A stretch of 36,098 nucleotides of DNA from the NCBI GenBank assembly GCA_003153015.1, contig PMBS01000183.1:1-36098 (forward strand), written 5' to 3'. Below are positions 12,156 through 35,284 of the stretch, piece by piece. Made by a program: the position numbers and the translations under genes. The notes below the pieces were generated by a model, which saw only the letters and a list, made by a program, of their open reading frames with translations, ran no database searches and was not told the DNA's origin. The stretch is from Myxococcales bacterium. Lineage in GTDB: Bacteria; Myxococcota_A; Polyangia; Fen-1088. Within the stretch, counting starts at the first letter, position 1; each line of letters opens with the position of its first letter.

Positions 12156-14102
12156 CTATTGGTGCAACGGGGGACAGTCTTGGGTTGACTTTGCGCAGGT
12201 CAGACACTTCATTGCCAGCAGTGTACCTGCGGGCGCTGTCTGTCCATTTCTGCGCAGGACGGTGATCCTTTGGCCCCTATATGAGTTCGGACAACCTGCC
12301 GCGCTGGTGTCGTAGTAGAGGAACCAGCAAGGCCGAGCGGCGTCCGTGTCCGGTATTAGGTTGGTGTTGTTTTGCGCACCTGCCGGATTGAGAGGTGCTC
12401 CCGTAGCGGGATCAATGCACTCGGGGCGGGAATACTCCTCATACCCGCTGCCAAGGCAATTAGGTGGGGTGCCCGGGGTGTCGCACGCTATCTTGTCGGT
12501 AACCTGGCATTCGGGCTGGACAGGGCCGCGTTGCGCCCCGGCGGCCGGAGCCGGCCCTGCGTCGATCAACGGGAAGTCGACACAGCCGGGCTTCAACACC
12601 TGGACGATAGCGTCGGCGATCTGTTGCATCGCGGGTTTGAAGTCCTGGTTGCACAGGCTGAAGGTGTTAACAACAGGACCAGTAATCGGATCGGTCTTCT
12701 GGAAGGCATCGAGGAACTTCTTCAGGCGAAGTCCACCATATGCCTTGTAAATGTTATTGTCGCTTGTGGCCTGGATCGAAGGAATCCTGCAAATGGGCAT
12801 GTAGTCCCAAAGAGTTTCCTGGGGGTGGGGAAGCGAGGTGGTGTCTATCCCAATCTGGTATTGGTCACTGACTGTGACACCGCTCAAGGCAGTGTCCGGG
12901 GGCCAGCCGATGATGCCTGACACGAGAATCTTGGCGGCGGTTTTCTGCATGTAGACGTGATTGCCATTTGCATCGAAGACAGGGTTGCCGTTTGCGTCGA
13001 AGACCCAGGCACTCACCCCGTTGACGCTGTCGATCATGTCCTGGACTCTGATGAGAGGAAGATAGTGGTGGTCCGGGCTGCCTGGGTTGGGCTGGTCCTT
13101 GGGTGCGCAGTTGGCAAAAGCGGTTGTGAAGCCAACGTTGGGCGCCGGGAGGGGGTTGGGCGGCTGAAAGCCTATCGACGGGTCCTCGTAGCCAGTAATT
13201 GGCTGGCCGTTGCACACATGGCCACGCGCCGCACATTTCAGGCTGGCGGTTTCGGTTAGGGGATTCTGGGCCTGCAAGAACATTGAGTCGTTGACATTGT
13301 CGTCGGGATCAGCAGAGCAGTCATCCTCGTCGGTAATGAGCACAATCGCCAGGTAGCCCTTGGGCCGCAAGAAGCCGATGTTCTCTGGGTTGATCTGATT
13401 GGGGGCATCTTTGGGATTAGCGGGATAATCAGCAGTCAGTGCCACGCGAACCGATTGCAGTGGATGCTCGTACCCGCAGCCCTTGGTTCCCACGGCCGTG
13501 GCCAGGCAAGCGAAGACGTCCTGGATGTTTCCGTCGTAGTTCTTTATCCGCCCAGTTCCATTTGGATTCGCGATATCCGAGATCCAGCGCTGGCCCTCGT
13601 GCAGGCCGCATCCATTGGCTACTGGGTGACCTCCCAGGGTTGGATCAGCATTGGGGTTGACCGACGCGAGCGGATTGCTGGGATCGTTCCCATACAGGAG
13701 TCCCCGGTCGCCCAGCACCCTCTTGCAGTTTTCCCCGATGGGCTCCGACCCAGACCCCATGTCGCTGCTGATCACGCCGATGTGGACGTCAGGTAAGCTG
13801 ACACCGCCACTAGGGTCTGGAATTTGCTGCAACACCTGGATCATGCTTGGGAAGTTCTGAGCCAGGCGAGTCTGCTTGGGGTCCATGGACGGGGAGTTGT
13901 CGATCATGAACAAGATGTCGACCTCACGCTCCGGGCTGACCAGAATCGTGAAGTCGGTTTCCATCTGTGGGTTCGGCAAGGGCTCTTTCAGGGGGTGCCC
14001 ATTGCAAGCCCATAGGGCAAAGGGCAGGGCAGGGAGCAGCAGCCCCAAACGCAGGTACTGCCAACGAACAAGCGGCAAGAGCCTTGAAAGATGACGGGCC
14101 AT
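12156..14102 (-). CDS. VWA-domain lipoprotein, Cys-rich
   Basis: A 648-aa predicted lipoprotein. The signal peptide (RHLSRLLPLVRWQYLRLG... core) ends in a lipobox-like LWAC, so the mature protein would be acylated at Cys and held in the outer or inner membrane. A von Willebrand A-like domain follows, with MIDAS DNSPS in LFMIDNSPSM and a later acidic ITDEDDCS. The rest is Pro/Asn/Gly-rich with many Cys residues that could pair in the periplasm or outside the cell. A short duplication FDANGNPVFDANGNHV is seen. ATG 14102 is chosen because AGGAGG lies 6 nt upstream; the track's 14117 ATG overlaps that ribosome site. Such VWA lipoproteins are frequent in Myxococcota but their role is largely unknown. 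Codons are visibly less GC-biased than in the neighbours. Confidence 0.85.
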   Translation of the reverse strand: MARHLSRLLPLVRWQYLRLGLLLPALPFALWACNGHPLKEPLPNPQMETDFTILVSPEREVDILFMIDNSPSMDPKQTRLAQNFPSMIQVLQQIPDPSGGVSLPDVHIGVISSDMGSGSEPIGENCKRVLGDRGLLYGNDPSNPLASVNPNADPTLGGHPVANGCGLHEGQRWISDIANPNGTGRIKNYDGNIQDVFACLATAVGTKGCGYEHPLQSVRVALTADYPANPKDAPNQINPENIGFLRPKGYLAIVLITDEDDCSADPDDNVNDSMFLQAQNPLTETASLKCAARGHVCNGQPITGYEDPSIGFQPPNPLPAPNVGFTTAFANCAPKDQPNPGSPDHHYLPLIRVQDMIDSVNGVSAWVFDANGNPVFDANGNHVYMQKTAAKILVSGIIGWPPDTALSGVTVSDQYQIGIDTTSLPHPQETLWDYMPICRIPSIQATSDNNIYKAYGGLRLKKFLDAFQKTDPITGPVVNTFSLCNQDFKPAMQQIADAIVQVLKPGCVDFPLIDAGPAPAAGAQRGPVQPECQVTDKIACDTPGTPPNCLGSGYEEYSRPECIDPATGAPLNPAGAQNNTNLIPDTDAARPCWFLYYDTSAAGCPNSYRGQRITVLRRNGQTAPAGTLLAMKCLTCAKSTQDCPPLHQ

Positions 14103-14117
14103 GGAAACCCTCCTCAT

Positions 14118-15464: not shown

Positions 15465-15502
15465 CGATAGCCGCAAGAGGTCGTGACCGTGGTCGTGGCC
15501 GG
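15465..15502 (+). repeat. GGTCGTG/GTGGCC repeat, copy 1
   Basis: The segment CGATAGCCGCAAGAGGTCGTG followed by CCGTGGTCGTGGCCGG sits between the divergent carboxypeptidase gene and mqnD. It shares the seed GCCRCARRAGGTCGT with the copies at 26239-26270 and 26474-26526. Confidence 0.55.
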
Positions 15503-15527
15503 ACGCTTCTCACTTCCAGGCTCTTGC

Positions 15528-15533
15528 TACACT
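15528..15533 (+). promoter_or_regulatory. -10-like box of mqnD
   Basis: TACACT lies 6 nt before the ATG of mqnD, which would place the transcription start at the start codon. The -35 is weak. No Shine-Dalgarno other than TGGA is present. Confidence 0.45.
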
Positions 15534-15539
15534 GGAACC

Positions 15540-16388
15540 ATGCCCATCTCGCTGGCCTACTCGGTCGATGCTGACGATGCGTTCATGTTCCACGCCCTGC
15601 GCGCAGGTGACGTGGACACGCGAGGGCTGGCCTTCACCCATCGGCGCGGGGATACGTCGGAGTTGAATGCACTGGCTCTGGCCGGTGAAATTGACGTGGT
15701 GGCGATCTCCGCGGGTGCCTATCCTGCGGTGGCGGGCAAGTACCTGCTGCTTCCGCATGGCGCTTCAGTGGGGCGAGGTTTTGGGCCGGTGCTGGTGGCA
15801 CGGCAGCCGATGGCCTTGGCAGAGCTAGCTGGACGGCGTGTCGGCATTCCGGGCCTGTCCACCACGGCGTGGTTGGTGCTGCGCCAGATGCAGCCGGGGC
15901 TTCTGCCCGTGGTTGTGCCGATAGCGCCCTTTGGCCGTATCTTCGAGTGCCTGGATGCGGGCAGCATCGATGCGGCCTTGTTGATTCACGAGGGCCGGCT
16001 CATCTACCAAAGCCGGGGCTATGCGCGCATCGCTGAGATCGGACAATGGTGGCAGGCCACGACCGGGCTGCCCTTGCCCCTCGGGGTGAATGTCATTCGG
16101 CGCGGGCTTGGGGCCGAAACCATCGCTGCGGTATCCGCTGTCCTGCGCGATTCGATCGCCTATGCACTCGACCACCGCGACGAGGTGATCCGGGTGCTTG
16201 CCGCCGAGAAACGCGGCGAGCCTGCCCTGGCCGAGACCGCGCTGCTTGACCGCTACCTCGGCATGTATGCCAACCAGGACACGCGCGCGATGGCGCCTGA
16301 CGTCCGCCGCGCCATCGAGGTTCTGTTCGAGCGCGCAGCCAAGGGCGGGTTGCTGCCCGCCGGGTGCCCGATCGATTGGGCACCGTGA
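15540..16388 (+). CDS. mqnD: 1,4-dihydroxy-6-naphthoate synthase MqnD
   Basis: A 282-aa member of the MqnA/MqnD periplasmic-binding-protein-like fold. MqnD converts cyclic dehypoxanthinyl futalosine to 1,4-dihydroxy-6-naphthoate in the futalosine route to menaquinone. The N-terminus ISLAYSVDADDAFMFHAL matches the MqnD start (SPD-N-F type); LALAGEIDVVAISAGAYPAV, the catalytic-His segment IHEGRLIYQ, and LPLPLGVNVIRRGL are typical. MqnA is less likely given the IHEGR segment. The start is ATG 15540, not the track's 15483: the family N-terminus begins here and a TACACT box is 6 nt upstream. mqnB lies convergent just downstream, so two steps of the same pathway are side by side. Confidence 0.93.
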   Translation: MPISLAYSVDADDAFMFHALRAGDVDTRGLAFTHRRGDTSELNALALAGEIDVVAISAGAYPAVAGKYLLLPHGASVGRGFGPVLVARQPMALAELAGRRVGIPGLSTTAWLVLRQMQPGLLPVVVPIAPFGRIFECLDAGSIDAALLIHEGRLIYQSRGYARIAEIGQWWQATTGLPLPLGVNVIRRGLGAETIAAVSAVLRDSIAYALDHRDEVIRVLAAEKRGEPALAETALLDRYLGMYANQDTRAMAPDVRRAIEVLFERAAKGGLLPAGCPIDWAP

Positions 16389-16402
16389 AATCGCGGCATC
16401 GG

Positions 16403-16540
16403 TTAGCTAGCTTTCTCACCACAGAGAGCACGGAGGCCACAGAGCCGGACCGGAAAAGGGAAGGGTTGGGTGCGGTCCAAGCTTCCTCTTCCCATCCGAT
16501 CTCTGTGTGCTCTGTGCCCTCTGTGGTGAAAAAGCTAGCC
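16403..16540. repeat. NNCACAGAG palindromic element, copy B
   Basis: A palindrome of about 138 bp between mqnD and mqnB. Left arm: GTTAGCTAGCTTTCTCACC then ACAGAG-type units of 9 nt. The right arm ends CTGTGGTGAAAAAGCTAGCC. An inner GA-rich/TC-rich pair (GGAAAAGGGAAGG versus CTTCCTCTTCCC) extends the stem. Since the flanking genes are convergent, the hairpin could end both messages. Confidence 0.85.
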
Positions 16541-16578
16541 CCTTCCCGAGTCCGGACGCTTCGCGAAAAGGGTTCGCG

Positions 16579-17265
16579 CTAGCGGCGGACGGTCGCTCTT
16601 TCGATCATTTTGAGGGCGGCGCGGCAGGCGGCGGCCGCGGCGCGGGTCGCGTTGCGCTTCCAGGCCGCGTGCGCGGACGAACCCACGGCATTGCTGATGC
16701 CCAGGATGGCCGCGAAAGGCAGCCCAGCCGTCGCTGCGGCACGGGCGACTGCGAAGGCTTCCAAATTCTCGACGTCGCAGGCCGGGGTGCGGGCGCGATG
16801 CCCGAGCGCGGCGGACCGGGACGTGATAGCGAGCGGACATGCCACGTCTGCCATGAGCAGTCCAGCAGCCGCAGCGACTCGGCGGAGGGTGAGTGTGGTT
16901 TCCTGCGTGGCCGGCAGTCTGGGTGGCAGATAGGCGTCGCCGGTCGCCACTCCATCAGCCGACAGGAGCAGACGCCGTGCTGCCACCACGCCGGCCAGGG
17001 CAAGGTCGGGACGCAGGCCCGGATAGCTTCCGGCCGTGCCGACGAACATGACGGCGTCGGGTTTCACCTCCGCGATGGCGGAGGTGGCGCCGATGGCCGC
17101 CTCGACCAGTCCGACGCCCGCGGCCCGCGCAACCACGCGCAGCCCAGTATCAGACCTGTGCCTGAGCAGGCGGCGAAGCTCGGCTAGTTCCGGCGGCCAG
17201 GCCGCCAGCACCAGCCAGCGCCTGAGCGCGTGTCTCTGGTCAGTCTGGTCGGTTCGCGAGCGCAA
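16579..17265 (-). CDS. mqnB: Futalosine hydrolase MqnB
   Basis: A protein of up to 228 aa with the nucleoside phosphorylase fold, assigned as futalosine hydrolase, which removes hypoxanthine from futalosine to give dehypoxanthine futalosine. Visible are ARAAGVGLVEAAIG, the FVGTAGSYPG glycine motif, and VENLEAFAVARAA, the position of the VENMEGAAVA active-site motif of MTA/SAH nucleosidases, followed by ILGISNAVG. The pairing with mqnD supports MqnB over a general nucleosidase. The track start is TTG 17265; GTG 17211 (giving VLAAWPPELAEL) is an alternative and neither has a good ribosome site, so the first 18 residues are uncertain. The usual partner genes mqnA, mqnC and mqnE are not in the window. 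Confidence 0.85.
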   Translation of the reverse strand: MRSRTDQTDQRHALRRWLVLAAWPPELAELRRLLRHRSDTGLRVVARAAGVGLVEAAIGATSAIAEVKPDAVMFVGTAGSYPGLRPDLALAGVVAARRLLLSADGVATGDAYLPPRLPATQETTLTLRRVAAAAGLLMADVACPLAITSRSAALGHRARTPACDVENLEAFAVARAAATAGLPFAAILGISNAVGSSAHAAWKRNATRAAAAACRAALKMIERATVRR

Positions 17266-17460
17266 TCCGAAATGATCCTGTTAGGTCTGATGAGGCCACT
17301 TGGGCGTTGGCCAGGGGCTTGGTATACCTCGGCGTCTGCGAATAGATCCATGGGCCAGAGGATCACAACCATGCCGGCATTGCGCCAAGCTGCCCCTAGG
17401 GCACCGAACGGTTTGCGTGTTGGGCAGAATCGAGAGCTTGCGGGCGTCCAGGAAACTCGC
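17266..17460. other. Spacer between divergent mqnB and sppA
   Basis: Together with the following palindrome this makes a gap of about 320 bp. I see no gene: a leftward frame (residues such as VILWPMDLFADAEVY) is open but has no recognisable family, and it runs through the palindrome, which suggests chance. GGTATACC (17321-17328) is a short perfect palindrome. Confidence 0.35.
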
Positions 17461-17576
17461 CTCGCCCCGCGCAGCGGGGAGAGGCCGACGCGCGAAGCGC
17501 GGCGGGTGAGGGGCTCGGCCGCGAGAAAGTGCGCCTGCCCCTCACCCTCGCCCTCTCCCCGCTGCGCGGGGCGAGG
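17461..17576. repeat. Perfect-arm REP-like palindrome
   Basis: A 116-bp element. The left arm CTCGCCCCGCGCAGCGGGGA plus GAGG is an exact 24-nt reverse complement of the right arm (17552-17576, CTCTCCCCGCTGCGCGGGGC...). Inside, GGGTGAGGGGC and GCCCCTCACCC form a second exact 11-bp pair. Each arm also holds its own small stem (CCCCGCGCAGCGGGG). The element ends 10 nt before the sppA start and its last bases (GAGGG) fit as the sppA ribosome site. Confidence 0.85.
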
Positions 17577-17586
17577 GAATCGGACA

Positions 17587-20061
17587 GTGCCCGGGCGTCG
17601 CAACAGCGCCTGGTTGATTCTGGCAATGGTCGTGGGCGTTGCCCCAAGCGCCCGCGCCGCCGACGTTCCTTCCTCTCCCTTTCGCGGCGTGAAGGTGCCA
17701 GGCAGCGGCGTAGCTGGCGACGCGGACGGAACTTCGGTCGAGCTCAACCCAGGGCAATTGGGCGTCCTTGCGGGAGCATCCAGCGCGCTGGTGGTCGACT
17801 ACTGGGGACATGACGTCCAGCGGCCCGGTCGCGGTGGCGCTCTCATGCTGGGAACGCCGCTGGTTTTTGGCACAGCGCTGGGGGCTGGCTTCCAGTGGCT
17901 GCGTCCGACGTTGCCCGGGATGCCGGGCGACTACCAGAAGCTGCAACTCGGCCTCGGCGTGCGGCTGGGTCGTGGTGCCGGGTTTGGCATGTCGTGGGAA
18001 CACATCTTCAGCACGGGCCTGGCGACGACCAACAGTCTCACCTTCGGGTTGGGCGTGCGGCTCCTGTCCAGCTTGGCTGCGGGCGTGGCGGTGCGCGATG
18101 TGGGGCGTCCGAATAACCTGCCCCGAGAGTGGGATTTCGAGGCGGTCCTGCGTCCCCTGGCCAGCGACCGTCTGGAGATCGCCGGGGGCGTGCGCCTGTT
18201 GCAGGGCGACGAGACGACGGCGCTGCCACGGGCGCGGGTTTCCGCGCGGCTGGCTCGCGGCTTGCTGATTTTTGGCGAGATAGATTGGCCGCGCTACCGC
18301 ACGGCGGAGCCGCAGGTAGGCAGTACGCTGGCGCCGCCGGCGGACTACGCCGCCCTGGTCGGTCTAACCATCGAAGAGGAACGACTGGGCGTGACCGTGG
18401 CGGGTGTGGGCAACTGGCGCGCTGGCGACGAGAACGGCGCTGCTCTGGGCCCGGGCGGTTCAGTCATGCTGCGCTCCTTTGCTACCCGACATGCGCCGCT
18501 TTGGGCCAGATCCTACGTGGCGCGGGTGAAGGTGAGCAATCTGGAGGCGGACCGGAGTTTCCTGGCGCTGGTGGTACGTCTGCGCCAGCTCGGTGACGAC
18601 CCGGCAGTGGCCGCGGTGTTGCTCGACATCGAAGAGCCTGATCTGGGCCTGGGCCGCATCGAGGAGTTGCGCGCGCTGGTTGCGGACCTTCGGCGGCGCA
18701 AGCCCGTGCTCGCGCGCCTTACCCAGCCCGATACCCGTGCCTACTACCTGGCCAGCGCTTGTGACCGCGTGTTCATCGATCCGGCGGTGGGTCTCAACTT
18801 CGGCGGATTCGCGCAGACCGTGACCTTCTACAAGAGCGCGCTTGACCGACTGGGCGTCGAGGTCGATCTGGTGCGCATCGCCGAGTACAAGGGTGCCATG
18901 GAGCCCTTCGTGATGAACGGTCAGTCGGCTCCGGTGGCCGCAAACCGCAACGCCATCTTGGACGACAATTTCGGCAGGCTGCTGGCCGGCGTGGCTGGGG
19001 GGCGCTCGGCGCAGGGGCTCGACCAGGCCAAGGTGCGCGGCTTGGTCGATCAGGCCATGTTCTCGTCGGCGCAAGCGCTGCAGGCCGGGCTGGTGGACAT
19101 GGTCGCAGACGACGACGAGCTGAAGACGGCCGTGGAGCAGAGCCTGGGCCCGCTGCGCGACGCCGACCCGCATCCACGGGATGTGGGCCGTTGGCGTCCC
19201 AGCCGGGTTGCGGTGGTCCTGGTGGACGGGACTTTGATGGACGGCGAAGGCAGCGACTTTCCCTTCCCGTCGAGCGAGATTGCCTGGTCCGATCGAATCA
19301 TCGCCGCCTTGGAGGAGGCGGGCAAGGATCCCTCGGTGCGCGCGATTGTCCTGCGGGTCAACAGCCCGGGCGGCTCGGCCTTGGCTTCTGATCGCATCGC
19401 GCGCGTGCTGGTGCGTTTGCGCAAGTCGGGCAAACCTGTGCTGGCCTCGCTAGGCGACGTGGCGGCATCCGGGGGTTACTACGTGGCGGCGCCGGCCAGT
19501 GAGATCTTTGCCTCGCCTTCGACCCTGACCGGATCGATCGGCATCTTTGGCTTCAAGGTGAACCTGCAGGGGCTGCTCGGCCATCTGGGCATTGCCCGCG
19601 AGACCTACAAGCGCGGGGCCTACGCAGATTTGTTGTCGGTCGGGCATGGCTGGAATGACGAAGAACGAGCCCTCATCTCCAGCCGCATGGAGCAGATGTA
19701 TCGGCGATTTCTCGACACGGTGGCCGAGGGGCGCACAAGCCACGGCGTGAACGCCACGCGCGCCGACGAGCTGGGCCGCGGGCGGGTGTGGACCGGCGCG
19801 CAGGCCGCGGGCGTGGGTCTGGTCGATCGCATGGCCGGGATCAGCGCAGCGATTGACGAGGCCGCTCGGCGCGGCGGCGTGCCGGCGGGCCCGGGCGGCC
19901 TGCCCGAACTGGTGGTGTTGCCGCGGCCCGCGCCGTCGGTGCTGGGCGCGCTTGCCCGTGTCCCGGGCGGTCGCGCGGCGGTGCGCTTGCTGCTGCCACT
20001 TCTGGCCGAGGGCGGTACCGGCATCCTGGCGCGCTTACCCTACGAGATCGAGACTCGGTAG
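17587..20061 (+). CDS. sppA: SppA-type signal peptide peptidase with N-terminal beta-rich domain
   Basis: An 824-aa exported S49 serine protease. A signal peptide (GRRNSAWLILAMVVGVAPSARA) precedes about 275 residues rich in short glycine-containing beta strands (GLGVRLGRGAGFGMSW, LTFGLGVRLLSSLAAG), resembling an outer-membrane barrel or a beta-sandwich. Two S49 repeats then follow. The general-base Lys435 is in EYKGAMEPF and the nucleophile Ser628 in DVAASGGYYVAAP, with LRVNSPGGSALASD between them; this is the E. coli 67-kDa arrangement in which Lys and Ser come from different repeats. The ORF track begins at 17230, but that part is repeat DNA; GTG 17587 is chosen for its signal peptide and GAGGG 9 nt upstream. 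SppA digests leftover signal peptides in the membrane; a surface-anchored role is possible here. Confidence 0.88.
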   Translation: MPGRRNSAWLILAMVVGVAPSARAADVPSSPFRGVKVPGSGVAGDADGTSVELNPGQLGVLAGASSALVVDYWGHDVQRPGRGGALMLGTPLVFGTALGAGFQWLRPTLPGMPGDYQKLQLGLGVRLGRGAGFGMSWEHIFSTGLATTNSLTFGLGVRLLSSLAAGVAVRDVGRPNNLPREWDFEAVLRPLASDRLEIAGGVRLLQGDETTALPRARVSARLARGLLIFGEIDWPRYRTAEPQVGSTLAPPADYAALVGLTIEEERLGVTVAGVGNWRAGDENGAALGPGGSVMLRSFATRHAPLWARSYVARVKVSNLEADRSFLALVVRLRQLGDDPAVAAVLLDIEEPDLGLGRIEELRALVADLRRRKPVLARLTQPDTRAYYLASACDRVFIDPAVGLNFGGFAQTVTFYKSALDRLGVEVDLVRIAEYKGAMEPFVMNGQSAPVAANRNAILDDNFGRLLAGVAGGRSAQGLDQAKVRGLVDQAMFSSAQALQAGLVDMVADDDELKTAVEQSLGPLRDADPHPRDVGRWRPSRVAVVLVDGTLMDGEGSDFPFPSSEIAWSDRIIAALEEAGKDPSVRAIVLRVNSPGGSALASDRIARVLVRLRKSGKPVLASLGDVAASGGYYVAAPASEIFASPSTLTGSIGIFGFKVNLQGLLGHLGIARETYKRGAYADLLSVGHGWNDEERALISSRMEQMYRRFLDTVAEGRTSHGVNATRADELGRGRVWTGAQAAGVGLVDRMAGISAAIDEAARRGGVPAGPGGLPELVVLPRPAPSVLGALARVPGGRAAVRLLLPLLAEGGTGILARLPYEIETR

Positions 20062-21501: not shown

Positions 21502-22551
21502 CTAGGGCTTGCCGCCCACCAGTTTGACGCCCTCGGTGACCAGCGAGTCGGTGTCGCCGGTCAGTTTCACCCAACCCAGGGTGGATTCGCTGCGCGCGTA
21601 GAAAACCTTCTTAGGTGCTGACGTCGCACTCGACACGCTCTCGCCTGCTGGGACAGGGGCTTCGGCGACAGCGAGCCAGCCCAGGCTGCGGCCACGCGCG
21701 AAGTAGTCCAGCCGCAGCCTTGCTTGCGGCTCGCCTTCTGCGGGAATCTCACCCTTGCCCAGAGATTCGCTCGGCCAAAGACCGAAGGCGCGCTCGTGCC
21801 AGGTGCGCGCAGCCGGGTCGGGTTTGTCAGGCGCCCCGGTCGAAGCAATTTCCACTCCCCGTCCGTCGGTCGCGCGGGCCACGCGATACTCTTTCTTGGC
21901 CGAGCCGGCGGCCAGCGACACGCGATCGGCATCCTCCAGGCGGAACCCATGCAGATGGCGCTCGACCAGAGCGGTGGCCGCACCCTGGAAATCGCTGAGG
22001 ATGGATCGCGAAACCACGAACACCCGACCGTCGGTCTGGTCGCGCAGGTAGGGATCAGTTCCGCCCACGGGTGCGGGTGCGAGGTCAAAGACACGCCGGC
22101 CAGAACGGGTCACCACGGTGATGTGCTTTTTCGTGGCGACAAGGCCCAGGTCTTTCAACTTGGCCGCGTCCAGCACGCCGAGGGCACGGGTGGCGCGTAG
22201 GGGAGCAAAGCGCTGGTAGAGGGTCTTGGCCGTGTCGCTGCCACGTACCACCCGTTCCGGGGTGGGCTTGCCTGGGGTCGGCGCAGGCGTTGGCTTCTTT
22301 GCTTCCGGTGCCGCGCGACTTGAGAGACGAAGCACAACGAAGCTGCCATTCTCGTCGCTGTCGAGCTGCAGCTCGGCCCAGGTCTTGGCATCCTCATCGT
22401 CGAATCTGACCTTCTCTAACTCGTTCTTGGTAATGTCGAGGACGAACACCTCGCCCGCCTGCAACTCAGGCTGACGCTGCCAGGTCAGGTACGCCGCTGC
22501 CAGGCCCAATAGGGCCAAACCGCCTTGCAGCGCGACCGCCTTGCCGGTCAT
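21502..22551 (-). CDS. DUF4340 domain protein
   Basis: A 349-aa protein starting with one membrane segment (VALQGGLALLGLAAAYLTW) and then an envelope-facing domain of the DUF4340 type (VFVLDITKNELEKVRFD..., ERVVRGSDTAKTLYQRFAPLRATRALG). A Pro/Lys-rich insert (KKPTPAPTPGKPTPER) lies near residue 100. DUF4340 proteins nearly always follow GldG-like genes, as here, and are taken to be accessory parts of the transporter; the biochemical role is unknown. The start overlaps the gldG-like stop by 4 nt (ATGA), so translation is coupled. It is the last gene of the operon and faces mnmA across a CCGG repeat tract. Confidence 0.88.
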   Translation of the reverse strand: MTGKAVALQGGLALLGLAAAYLTWQRQPELQAGEVFVLDITKNELEKVRFDDEDAKTWAELQLDSDENGSFVVLRLSSRAAPEAKKPTPAPTPGKPTPERVVRGSDTAKTLYQRFAPLRATRALGVLDAAKLKDLGLVATKKHITVVTRSGRRVFDLAPAPVGGTDPYLRDQTDGRVFVVSRSILSDFQGAATALVERHLHGFRLEDADRVSLAAGSAKKEYRVARATDGRGVEIASTGAPDKPDPAARTWHERAFGLWPSESLGKGEIPAEGEPQARLRLDYFARGRSLGWLAVAEAPVPAGESVSSATSAPKKVFYARSESTLGWVKLTGDTDSLVTEGVKLVGGKP

Positions 22552-24416
22552 GACGAGCCCTCCGAGGTTGGCGCGGGCGGCGGGGTGGGTGCGGCTTTTC
22601 GTCGCGAGGCGCGTCGCCGGACGGCGTAGCCGATGCCCAGCAGCAGAGCTGGCGCGGCGAACACGCTGGCGTAGAACCAGGCCACATCTTGTTTGCGGGT
22701 GTGGCGGACCGGAACGTCCTCCTCGTTGTTGATGGTGCCTGCCAGGCGTTCGTCGCCAGCCAGCCAGCGCACCAGGTTGAGCGCGAATAGGCTGTTGGCC
22801 CGGTTGACGATCAGCTCGTCAGCCAGGGCATCTGAATCAGCCAGCACTAGGGCGCGCCCTTCCTCTTCGGGCGTGGTCCCTTTGCTTACCGCGGCTGCCA
22901 ACTCGTAGGCCTTGCGGGCCTCCTTGCCACCGTCAAATTCGAAGTTGCCGTCGAGGTCGTTCCAGGTGCTGGCCTCGGCGTGAACCACGAAGTTTACGCT
23001 GGGGGCATCGGGCGCAGGTTTGTCCGGCCGGGTGAGCGAGCCCGCCCCGAGGAGAACCAGCGGCAGGCGCAGACCGAACTGGTTGAGCGTCGCCACCGAG
23101 GCGTGGCTGGAGTAGCTACCGGTGGCGATGCCGATGCGGTCAGTTTTCTGCCGGGTCCGTGCCCAATAGATCTGGTCGTTGGCCAGGGTCGTGGCATTGA
23201 AACGCAGAGAAAGCCCGTCGAGCAGCGCGGCCGCAGTATCGCCGCTTTCTGGATCCAGGGCGACTAGCAAGCGTCCTTTGTGGTCGAAGTAGCGCAGCAA
23301 GGAATCCGTCTCGGCCGGCATGATCGGCCGTCTGGGACCCAGCATGAGCAGCAGGCCGGCATCGGCCGGCACCTCATGGCCCAGCCCCTGGGCCAGGCCC
23401 AACTCCTTGGCTTGGAAGCCCAGCTCAGACAAGAGATCGCGCAGCAGGCGCACGCTGGCGCGGCGGTCGGTTTCGCCGATGGGGTCGAAGGAGCGCTCCT
23501 CGTGCCCCTGCACGAAGTAGGCGACGCGGGTGCCGCGCGACACGGTCACCAGGCGTTTGTACACTTCCTGATCGAGAATGCGTAGCTTGCCGCGGGCGCT
23601 TTCCAGTTTGACTGGCACCGCGATCTGTTCCCGCCGTTTGTCGCGCGCCACGAGGATCACGCCGTTGCCCGATACGCCCAGCTCGTGCGCCCGCGCGGGC
23701 TCGACCGCCTGATCGAGCCGGCTCACGCTCAGTTGCGACGACGCGTGGGTCAGATCGGCGAAGTAGTTGGCCACCTCCTCGGCCACTTCATTGGCCGGCG
23801 GAAAGAACAGGTACACCTGCACCGGTTGATCGAGCGCCGCCACCAGTTTCTTGGTCGCGGTTCCCGCCCGGGTGCTGCGGAAGTAGGCCAGGTCGACCTT
23901 CAGGTTGCGCTCGGCAGCGACATAGGCGACGGAAAAGCAGAACACCAGGGCCAGGGCGGTGCCCAGCCCAGACAGCATCGCAGCCCGCACCCGGCGGGTG
24001 TCGAGCACTGGTGCGTGCGCCATGCCGGCCAGCGAGAGTTCGACCAGAAGCACGGGCAGCGTGCCGGCCAGCATGAGCGCCGGCCACAGCACCGCCAGGG
24101 CGCCAGCCAGGCGGGGCATGAGCAGATCCAGGGGACGACCGAAGAGGCGCGCGCCCAGATCCCCGCCGGCAAAATGCAGGACGAGGGCGAGGGCACCGAA
24201 TCCGTAAAGGAGAAGGAGCGTGCGTGCGGTACTGCGAACCCCGGCTTGCGCCTTGCGCGCGCCCAGCCCGCACCACACGGCGGCTCCCAGCACAGAGGCT
24301 ACGCCCACCGCGGTCAGAACCGCGCTGGTTCGCCCAGCGGCAAGGATGCGCTCGCCGACGTAGATGAAGAGCAGGCCAGCGGCGTAGCCCAGCGACGGCC
24401 AGGGTCTTATTGCCAT
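22548..24416 (-). CDS. GldG-family ABC transporter auxiliary membrane protein
   Basis: A 622-aa membrane protein. The N-terminal 200 residues hold about five hydrophobic segments (for example SLGYAAGLLFIYVG, TLLLLYGFGALALVLHF, LAGALAVLWPALMLAGTLPVLL). A large soluble domain follows (LKVDLAYFRSTRAGTATKKLVAAL..., YFVQGHEERSF, LLMLGPRRPIMPAE, RLLVALDPESGD) of the GldG/IFT52-like type, and a last segment VAWFYASVFAAPALLLGIGY leads to a basic tail. ATG 24416 is chosen over the track's 24596 because GGAGG lies 7 nt upstream and the extra 60 residues read through the permease gene in another frame. It overlaps the permease stop by 10 nt. GldG-type proteins are named from Bacteroidetes gliding, but homologues occur in many non-gliding bacteria; the substrate is not known. 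Confidence 0.9.
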   Translation of the reverse strand: MAIRPWPSLGYAAGLLFIYVGERILAAGRTSAVLTAVGVASVLGAAVWCGLGARKAQAGVRSTARTLLLLYGFGALALVLHFAGGDLGARLFGRPLDLLMPRLAGALAVLWPALMLAGTLPVLLVELSLAGMAHAPVLDTRRVRAAMLSGLGTALALVFCFSVAYVAAERNLKVDLAYFRSTRAGTATKKLVAALDQPVQVYLFFPPANEVAEEVANYFADLTHASSQLSVSRLDQAVEPARAHELGVSGNGVILVARDKRREQIAVPVKLESARGKLRILDQEVYKRLVTVSRGTRVAYFVQGHEERSFDPIGETDRRASVRLLRDLLSELGFQAKELGLAQGLGHEVPADAGLLLMLGPRRPIMPAETDSLLRYFDHKGRLLVALDPESGDTAAALLDGLSLRFNATTLANDQIYWARTRQKTDRIGIATGSYSSHASVATLNQFGLRLPLVLLGAGSLTRPDKPAPDAPSVNFVVHAEASTWNDLDGNFEFDGGKEARKAYELAAAVSKGTTPEEEGRALVLADSDALADELIVNRANSLFALNLVRWLAGDERLAGTINNEEDVPVRHTRKQDVAWFYASVFAAPALLLGIGYAVRRRASRRKAAPTPPPAPTSEGSS

Positions 24417-25135
24417 CGTCGCGCCTCCAGCACACGGGTGGCCGCGAACAGGGCGAAGTAGGTCACCAGCAGGTAGTAGGCCACGTCGCGCAGATTGATC
24501 ACGCCAGCCTGAAAGGGCGGGAAATGCCGGCCCCACAGCGCCAGGGCGAGGAATACATCGTTGAGCGGCCGCTCGCTCACCGCGGCCAGCAGCCAAACCA
24601 CGATCAGCCCCACCAGCATGGCGCCCGAGATAATGGCCGCCAATACCTGCGAGCGCGCCAGGGCCGATCCGAGCGTGCCGATGGCCAAGGCGGCGCTGCC
24701 CAGCAGCAAGAGCCCCAGATAGCCAGCAGCCACCTGACCAATCGACAACTTGCCGTTGACCATGATTAGGGCGGGCATGAAGGCGGTGGCTAGGGTGACC
24801 ATGGCCAAAAAGGTGAACGCGGAAAAGAACTTCCCCAAGATGATCTCGCGGTCACGCACCGGGGACGAGGTGAGCAGGACCAGGGTGCCGTTTTGGCGTT
24901 CTTCGGCGACCAGCCGCATGGCGAGAAACACCGCTGCGATCATGGTCGTCCCGCTGGAGAAGTAGAAGAAGTCGCTCAGCACCTCAGCCGAGTGCTTGTC
25001 TTGTTGGGCCCCCAGGGCGAAGGCATTCCACAAGATGCCATCCACCAGCAACACCGCGGCGGCGATGATGTACCCGCTCATGGTGCGCAAGTACGACCCC
25101 AGTTCCCGGCGGGCGATGAGCAGGGTGGCTCTCAT
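24407..25135 (-). CDS. ABC-2 type transporter permease (GldF-like)
   Basis: A 242-aa inner-membrane permease with six hydrophobic segments (MSGYIIAAAVLLVDGILW, TTMIAAVFLAMRLVAEE, FTFLAMVTLATAFMPALI, AGYLGLLLLGSAALAIG, VLAAIISGAMLVGLIVVW, VAYYLLVTYFALFAA). The EERQNGTLVLLTSSPV loop after the second segment is the coupling region of ABC-2 permeases. The start overlaps the ATPase stop by 4 nt and the end overlaps the GldG-like gene by 10 nt. It would form the pore with the ATPase upstream. Family membership is clear; the cargo is unknown. Confidence 0.92.
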   Translation of the reverse strand: MRATLLIARRELGSYLRTMSGYIIAAAVLLVDGILWNAFALGAQQDKHSAEVLSDFFYFSSGTTMIAAVFLAMRLVAEERQNGTLVLLTSSPVRDREIILGKFFSAFTFLAMVTLATAFMPALIMVNGKLSIGQVAAGYLGLLLLGSAALAIGTLGSALARSQVLAAIISGAMLVGLIVVWLLAAVSERPLNDVFLALALWGRHFPPFQAGVINLRDVAYYLLVTYFALFAATRVLEARRWQ

Positions 25136-26067
25136 GACAGCCTCTCGCGGTGGGACAGCTCGATGAAGATGGACTCCAGGCGCGAAGCGCCGCGGTCCAG
25201 ACGCAGCAGTTGATGCCCTGCCAGTACCAGAGCGCGCGCAATCTCGGGACGACAGTCTTCCCGCGCCCGGATCTTGAGCACGGTTTCATGGGCGGCGGAA
25301 TGCGCGATCTGCGCATCCAGCACGCCGGGCACCTTGCGGGCCACTTCGAGTGCCGTGGCAGCGGGCCCGCGCAGCGCCACCTCGATCTCGCCGGCCGTGC
25401 CCAGAGAAGCCGCAAGCTCTTCCTCGGTTCCCTGGGCCACGATCTCGCCTGCCTGAATGACCAGTAGCCGATCGCAGGTTTGGCTGATCTCGGCAAGGAA
25501 GTGACTGGAGATGAGCACGGTGTGCTCGCCGCGCAGGCGCCGGATCAGATTGCGCATCTCAACGATCTGGACCGGGTCCAGTCCGGCGGCGGGCTCGTCC
25601 AGAATCAGCAGGCGAGGGCGGTGAACCAGCGCCTGCGCCACGCCCACCCGCTGGCGATATCCATACGACAAGGTGCTGATGATTTCGTCGTGCATGTCGC
25701 GCAGGGCGAGCTTGTCCTCGCTCTCTTGCACGCGCGCCGGGGCGTCTCGACCGCTGACGCCGCGCAGACGGGCGGCGAAAGCCAGGTACCCGCCCACTGT
25801 CATTTCGTCGTAGAGAGGCGGCACATCGGGCAAGAAACCGATCTTGCGGCGCACCTCGTGTGGCTCGGCCGTCACCTCGAGCCCGTCGACGCGTACCTGA
25901 CCTGAGCTGGGCAGCAGCACGCAACCCAGGATCTTGAGCGTGGTGGTCTTGCCCGCGCCGTTGAGCCCGACAAAGCCGACGACCTCGCCCGGCCGAATGT
26001 CGAAGTTCAGCTCGCGGATCGCCGCACGCGCGCCGAAGTACTTGGTTAGCTCTCGCACCTCAATCAT
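25132..26067 (-). CDS. ABC transporter ATP-binding protein
   Basis: A 311-aa cytoplasmic ATPase, first gene of the four-gene operon. It shows Walker A GLNGAGKTT, Q-loop region IGFLPDVPPLYDEMTVGGYL, a signature in which the usual LSGG is LSYGYRQRVGVAQAL, Walker B LLILDEPAAGLDP and the switch His in VLISSHFLAE. The C-terminal 90 residues form the extra domain of ABC-2 ATPases (EIEVALRGPAATALE). The replacement of the LSGGQ signature by LSYGYRQ is found in many ABC-2 ATPases and need not impair activity. The start ATG 26067 has no clear ribosome site. Its promoter must lie in the repeat-rich region upstream. Confidence 0.94.
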   Translation of the reverse strand: MIEVRELTKYFGARAAIRELNFDIRPGEVVGFVGLNGAGKTTTLKILGCVLLPSSGQVRVDGLEVTAEPHEVRRKIGFLPDVPPLYDEMTVGGYLAFAARLRGVSGRDAPARVQESEDKLALRDMHDEIISTLSYGYRQRVGVAQALVHRPRLLILDEPAAGLDPVQIVEMRNLIRRLRGEHTVLISSHFLAEISQTCDRLLVIQAGEIVAQGTEEELAASLGTAGEIEVALRGPAATALEVARKVPGVLDAQIAHSAAHETVLKIRAREDCRPEIARALVLAGHQLLRLDRGASRLESIFIELSHRERLS

Positions 26068-34863: not shown

Positions 34864-34885
34864 AAAAGGCTTCCCGTTGGAGTCC
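34864..34885 (-). terminator. Possible rnpB terminator
   Basis: The P1 helix of rnpB is GC-rich and followed directly by TTTTG on the minus strand, so P1 itself may serve as a weak intrinsic terminator. The U run is only four bases. Confidence 0.35.
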
Positions 34886-35284
34886 GGCTGTAAGCCGGGT
34901 TCTGTGCCCGCGTCCGTTGCCTCGCGCGGGTGATGGTCATTCCTCTAGGCCGCTCGTTGCCGAACGGCTCGTGCGACCAACTTGGAACCTGGTGTCGACG
35001 CGGGCCACGTCGGCGGGGAAACCCCGCGGCTCCGATTCGGTCTTGCTCCAGGTGGGGTTTGCCGTGCCCCTCCCGTCACCGGGAGAGCGGTGTGCTCTTA
35101 CCACGCCGTTTCACCCTTGCCTGACCACGCGGTTGCCCGCGCGCTCAGGCGGTTTGCTTTCTGTTGCACTTTCCTTCGAGTCATCTCGACTGGCCGTTAA
35201 CCAGCACCCTGCCCAGGGAGCCCGGACTTTCCTCGACGGCGGCAAGCGCCGTCGCGACCATCCACCGAACTCCAGCGGGAAGCC
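34868..35284 (-). ncRNA. rnpB: RNase P RNA, bacterial class A
   Basis: On the minus strand all class A landmarks appear in order: P1 5' side GGCTTCCCGCTGGAGT, GAGGAAAGTCCGGGCTCC, CAGGGTGCTGGTTAACG, GTGCAACAGAAAGCAAACCG, AAGGGTGAAACGGCGTGGTA with AGAGCACACCGC, GGCAAACCCCACCTGGAGCA, and ACAGAACCCGGCTTA near the 3' end. The 3' ACTCCAACGGGAAGCC pairs with the 5' end as P1, then TTTTG follows. This is the catalytic RNA that cuts 5' leaders from tRNA precursors. Ends are set by the P1 pairing and the TATACT promoter box, so they may be off by a few bases. Confidence 0.96.

Follow-up and report, generated by a model that had tools for sequence, protein, structure and literature searches.

A phylum-wide fusion of the protease SppA to a predicted outer-membrane barrel in Myxococcota

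SppA is known from textbooks as the enzyme of the inner membrane that disposes of spent signal peptides. The Escherichia coli protein (protease IV, family S49; PDB 3bez and 3bf0) has tandem S49 domains with a Ser-Lys dyad, is held in the inner membrane by a segment at its N-terminus, and breaks down peptides once they have been released into the periplasm (PMC9360617). Here, we analyzed a 36,098-nucleotide stretch of DNA from a Myxococcales bacterium (GenBank assembly GCA_003153015.1, contig PMBS01000183.1; the whole stretch is referred to as the window). The gene at positions 17587 to 20061 encodes an SppA with the same tandem domains and dyad, which differs from the E. coli enzyme in having a signal peptide and a predicted FadL-type barrel in place of the membrane segment. 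We consider it likely that this protein is an outer-membrane-anchored SppA, in which the modeled barrel would serve as the anchor and the S49 part would cut hydrophobic peptides in the periplasm. SppA and FadL-type barrels are each already known; no SppA with an outer-membrane anchor that spans a phylum has been described in the literature searched, which mentions neither a barrel-fused SppA nor an SppA at the outer membrane.

Three described groups of barrels are closest to the N-terminal domain. The FadL/Toluene_X channels (PF03349) share with it a hatch-type NPA motif, the strand pattern, and a profile match of 97%, whereas the barrel in the window protein is shorter (~275 versus ~430 residues), has shorter loops, carries a C-terminal protease, and is not matched by Pfam. 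PorV of the type IX secretion system is a FadL-family 14-strand barrel (PMC9143113). It acts in complex with the sortase PorU, but the two are separate proteins and PorU does not belong to S49, whereas the window protein is a single chain with its protease predicted to be periplasmic. Finally, FadL-like proteins of Treponema pallidum were modeled as barrels with an extra C-terminal periplasmic domain (PMC8407342). Their extra domain is a helical bundle resembling tetratricopeptide repeats and not a protease.

The gene and its parts are as follows.
17587..20061, + strand: barrel-SppA gene with a GTG start, 824 amino acids (aa), based on the open frame and family matches.
17587..17658, + strand: signal peptide, residues 1-24, cleavage after ARA, without a lipobox cysteine, read from the sequence.
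17677..17766, + strand: hatch-like segment, residues 31-60, with a FadL-type NPA/NPG motif at residues 54-56, placed by hhalign on the NPA of FadL.
17779..18486, + strand: predicted 14-strand barrel, residues ~65-300, based on AlphaFold (AF2) secondary structure of low confidence, hhalign with controls, and Foldseek.
18685..19140, + strand: first S49 domain, with the general-base lysine (Pfam PF01343, 71.1 bits).
18889..18891, + strand: codon of Lys435, at the position of E. coli Lys209 (K in 60/60; 3bez alignment).
19417..19869, + strand: second S49 domain, with the nucleophile (Pfam PF01343, 141.2 bits).
19468..19470, + strand: codon of Ser628, at the position of E. coli Ser409 (S in 60/60; 3bez alignment).

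The fusion in the window is real and conserved. The reading frame is free of stops from 17587 to 20061, GAGGGA ~9 bases 5′ of the GTG start is a plausible ribosome-binding site, and the protein begins with a normal-looking signal peptide (VPGRRNSAWLILAMVVGVAPSARA). The original prediction, made from the sequence alone, had described ~275 glycine-rich beta residues between the signal peptide and two S49 repeats, and both the sequence and the homologues bear this out; residues 26-312 contain 15% glycine and no cysteine. Since this region is conserved across 60 homologues, with identity down to ~20%, it is no annotation artifact. An artificial joining of two genes was ruled out, the fusion being kept in dozens of genera.

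The protease part appears complete. Pfam recognizes the two S49 domains (1.4e-60), PDB 3bez aligns to residues 322-762, and the Lys435/Ser628 dyad is intact, both residues being present in 60/60 aligned long homologues. With NCBIfam, the window protein scored 224 bits (cut-off 155, 1.5e-66) for the domain model TIGR00706 and 275 bits (cut-off 311) for the whole-protein model TIGR00705. An N-terminal inner-membrane helix of the SppA type is absent from the window protein, and the cleavable signal and the beta domain stand in its place. The prediction had set E. coli SppA apart by a short N-terminal anchor.

The N-terminal domain most likely belongs to the outer-membrane barrels of the FadL/PorV kind and would form a closed barrel. 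Near their start, the homologues share the motif PT.Gv.lP...AG..DA.A...NPA.L, similar to the N-terminal hatch found in outer-membrane proteins of the FadL type. At the NPA/NPG positions, N is present in 57/60 and P in 59/60 homologues, and the third position is A in 35 and G in 24 (A or G in 59/60). Myxococcota FadL proteins were gathered by PF03349 and compared with the domain by profile-profile alignment (hhalign). The domain profile matched them at 97.1% (E 5e-11, 228 columns), with NPA on NPA, and still at 93% after the first 60 columns were dropped. In the controls, reversed profiles gave 22-26%, column-shuffled profiles 0.1%, and the S49 halves 0.1-0.3%. The family profile also showed amphipathic beta alternation in the N-terminal region (z 4.45 over shuffles), and the S49 halves did not exceed shuffles (z -2.48 and -0.75). 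Single family members weakly matched barrel models, namely Porin_4 (7.7e-4), OMP_b-brl, TraF_2, MipA, Toluene_X, and OmpG. PF03349 itself did not match the window protein, and one family member reached E 0.095.

The AF2 model of the domain, built from a 3-sequence alignment, contains 14 strands. When it was compared with solved structures by Foldseek, the listed matches were nearly all outer-membrane barrels. KdgM and OmpG came first, and FadL was found along with the type 9 translocon chains 8gl6_F and 6h3i_F, which we take to be PorV. The template modeling (TM) scores were low (0.24-0.38 on the query), and the fold search therefore backs the barrel class and not one specific fold. Among the structure matches in a viral library, phage-borne porins came first.

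Several observations weigh against a barrel. The domain model, made from only 3 sequences, is weak, with a predicted local distance difference test (pLDDT) score of 43 and a predicted TM-score (pTM) of 0.44; the separate beta domain anticipated by the prediction is present in the model, at low confidence. The full-length model is poor even over the S49 part, its alignment being too shallow to be informative. Since S49 is a known fold, the low confidence is at least partly due to alignment depth. In the window protein taken alone, the alternation is weak (z 0.98), and no Pfam barrel model matches it. A profile search of the PDB with the domain gave no barrel, only chance flagellar matches, and hydropathy averages 1.67 over one stretch of 19 residues. 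More generally, Pfam and NCBIfam scans of the N-terminal domain of the window protein gave no family beyond chance. The fusion is thus easily overlooked, as the protein is plain SppA to the NCBIfam models and the barrel lies outside every Pfam family.

The fusion occurs throughout Myxococcota, small genomes included, and is not peculiar to the window genome. Of 237 Myxococcota genomes sampled, 162 contained a match to the domain profile. Most matches lay in open frames of >780 aa, which have room for the protease too, whereas the weakest may represent barrels that stand alone. A stand-alone secreted protein of 300 aa is encoded in the window's own genome (locus L172, 1342-2241, + strand). It resembles the barrel domain (E 7.8e-6), has no Pfam family, and ranked next after the barrel-SppA in the domain-profile search of this genome, followed weakly by a FadL protein. 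A tree built from S49 cores placed the 58 barrel forms in a single clade (Shimodaira-Hasegawa-like approximate likelihood ratio test [SH-aLRT] 95), requiring one change. Because they form one clade, their history is most simply explained by a single fusion passed on by descent, and one old fusion in Myxococcota probably lies behind the barrel-SppAs.

In line with the prediction, the domain is not a general part of SppA. All 20 shorter S49 relatives fetched from the phylum are without it, 18/20 having an N-terminal hydrophobic helix and 2/20 a lipobox. The two short paralogues with a lipobox cysteine look like lipoproteins, a third anchoring mode in the phylum. In a plasmid collection of 3356 records, no match covered 80% of the query, and the SppAs found there do not cover the domain. 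The window protein had no match among viral contigs, for which the alignment yielded no usable pattern either. Beyond Myxococcota, a single contig scan, which was not systematic, gave only two close Myxococcales.

Many Myxococcota genomes hold both the barrel form and a transmembrane-anchored SppA, so that a division of labor between two membranes is open to a genetic test in one strain. Among 18 genomes of the window's family, the barrel form is the sole S49 gene in 11 and the transmembrane form in 1; the rest have no S49 gene or a fragment. The window genome is 87% complete and a second S49 gene could be missing there, but the eleven family genomes agree on a sole barrel form. In the one genome with only the transmembrane form, this SppA groups with that of Nonomuraea (Actinomycetota; SH-aLRT 99), which suggests replacement by gene transfer.

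No partner gene beside barrel-SppA is conserved across the phylum. At six loci in several genomes of one other family, a gene for an M16 zinc peptidase with a lipoprotein-like start lies between two convergent barrel-SppA genes; three further barrel-SppA pairs of this family gave no M16 match. A secreted protein of ~360 aa adjoins barrel-SppA in four genomes of another lineage.

As an outer-membrane-anchored SppA, the protein would be exported by its signal peptide, and its barrel would insert into the outer membrane. Judging from remote homology, residues ~30-300 probably fold as a small barrel of the FadL/PorV type, with a hatch at its N-terminus. The even strand number would leave the C-terminus in the periplasm. 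With 14 strands and both ends periplasmic as in FadL, the tandem S49 Ser-Lys protease would then hang below the inner leaflet of the outer membrane. Such an anchor suggests hydrophobic peptides or fragments gathering there as substrates, e.g., released signal peptides or pieces of lipoproteins and outer-membrane proteins, although this is the least certain step. Because E. coli SppA acts on released peptides (PMC9360617), SppA could plausibly work from either membrane. Furthermore, deletion of sppA in Flavobacterium columnare increased vesicle production (PMC13236525), so the loss of an SppA, whichever way that protein is anchored, can affect the outer membrane. Should this old and widely kept SppA version indeed be anchored in the outer membrane, Myxococcota would possess a separate station for clearing peptides there.

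The original prediction, partly supported in its interpretation and largely right on the nature of the fusion, had spoken of a protease that might act at the outer membrane through a barrel-like or surface domain. The barrel and the outer-membrane site agree with the FadL profile match, the NPA motif, the strand pattern, the fold search, and the missing transmembrane anchor. Exposure at the surface is not supported and is less likely: a surface-exposed protease was rejected on the even strand number, which itself comes from the weak model.

It is possible, if rather doubtful, that the barrel is merely an alternative anchor and that the enzyme clears released periplasmic signal peptides like E. 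coli SppA. The whole dyad and the S49 core are kept, and the anchor need not decide the substrate, E. coli SppA acting on peptides released from the membrane (PMC9360617). The barrel form is also usually the sole S49 enzyme in the window's family, and the further suggestion of the prediction, that such a protease might not act on leftover signal peptides, was not borne out. However, the many genomes with both forms, and those of the window's family without any S49 gene, suggest separate or dispensable tasks.

A peptide intake port, in which a FadL-like channel takes in hydrophobic peptides, for example from lysed prey, straight to a periplasmic S49 chamber and thus combines import and digestion in one chain, appears unlikely. 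The hatch NPA motif is among the most conserved features of the domain and leaves open the passage of peptides, and the M16 peptidase gene flanked by two barrel-SppA genes in some genomes of another family would fit such a role. In contrast, FadL is far longer than this barrel, barrel-SppA has no conserved uptake genes as neighbors, and the protein occurs across most of the sampled phylum, even in small genomes. Similarly improbable is a soluble periplasmic beta domain, e.g., for substrate binding or oligomerization, which would agree with the weak structure model and the lack of a barrel family match for the window protein alone, but not with the controlled FadL profile match, the NPA motif, the barrel-model matches of single members, and a fold search in which membrane barrels predominate.

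Just 5′ of the barrel-SppA gene, the window contains an inverted repeat of 29 bases (97%) with a 59-base spacer (17460-17488 and 17548-17576). It resembles a REP-like mobile palindrome pair, and its core is not found elsewhere in the window. The genes just upstream (15483-17265), one for menaquinone biosynthesis (PF02621) and one of the phosphorylase superfamily (PF01048), may belong to the futalosine pathway. A 653-aa frame without a Pfam match at E 0.01 (12156-14117, - strand) is located in the stretch of lowest GC content (0.594). Downstream (21502-26067, - strand), DUF4340, ABC_transp_aux-like, and ATP-binding cassette (ABC) ATPase genes stand in a row and resemble a Gld-type ABC system, and a complete bacterial RNase P RNA of class A is encoded at 34875-35273 (- strand).
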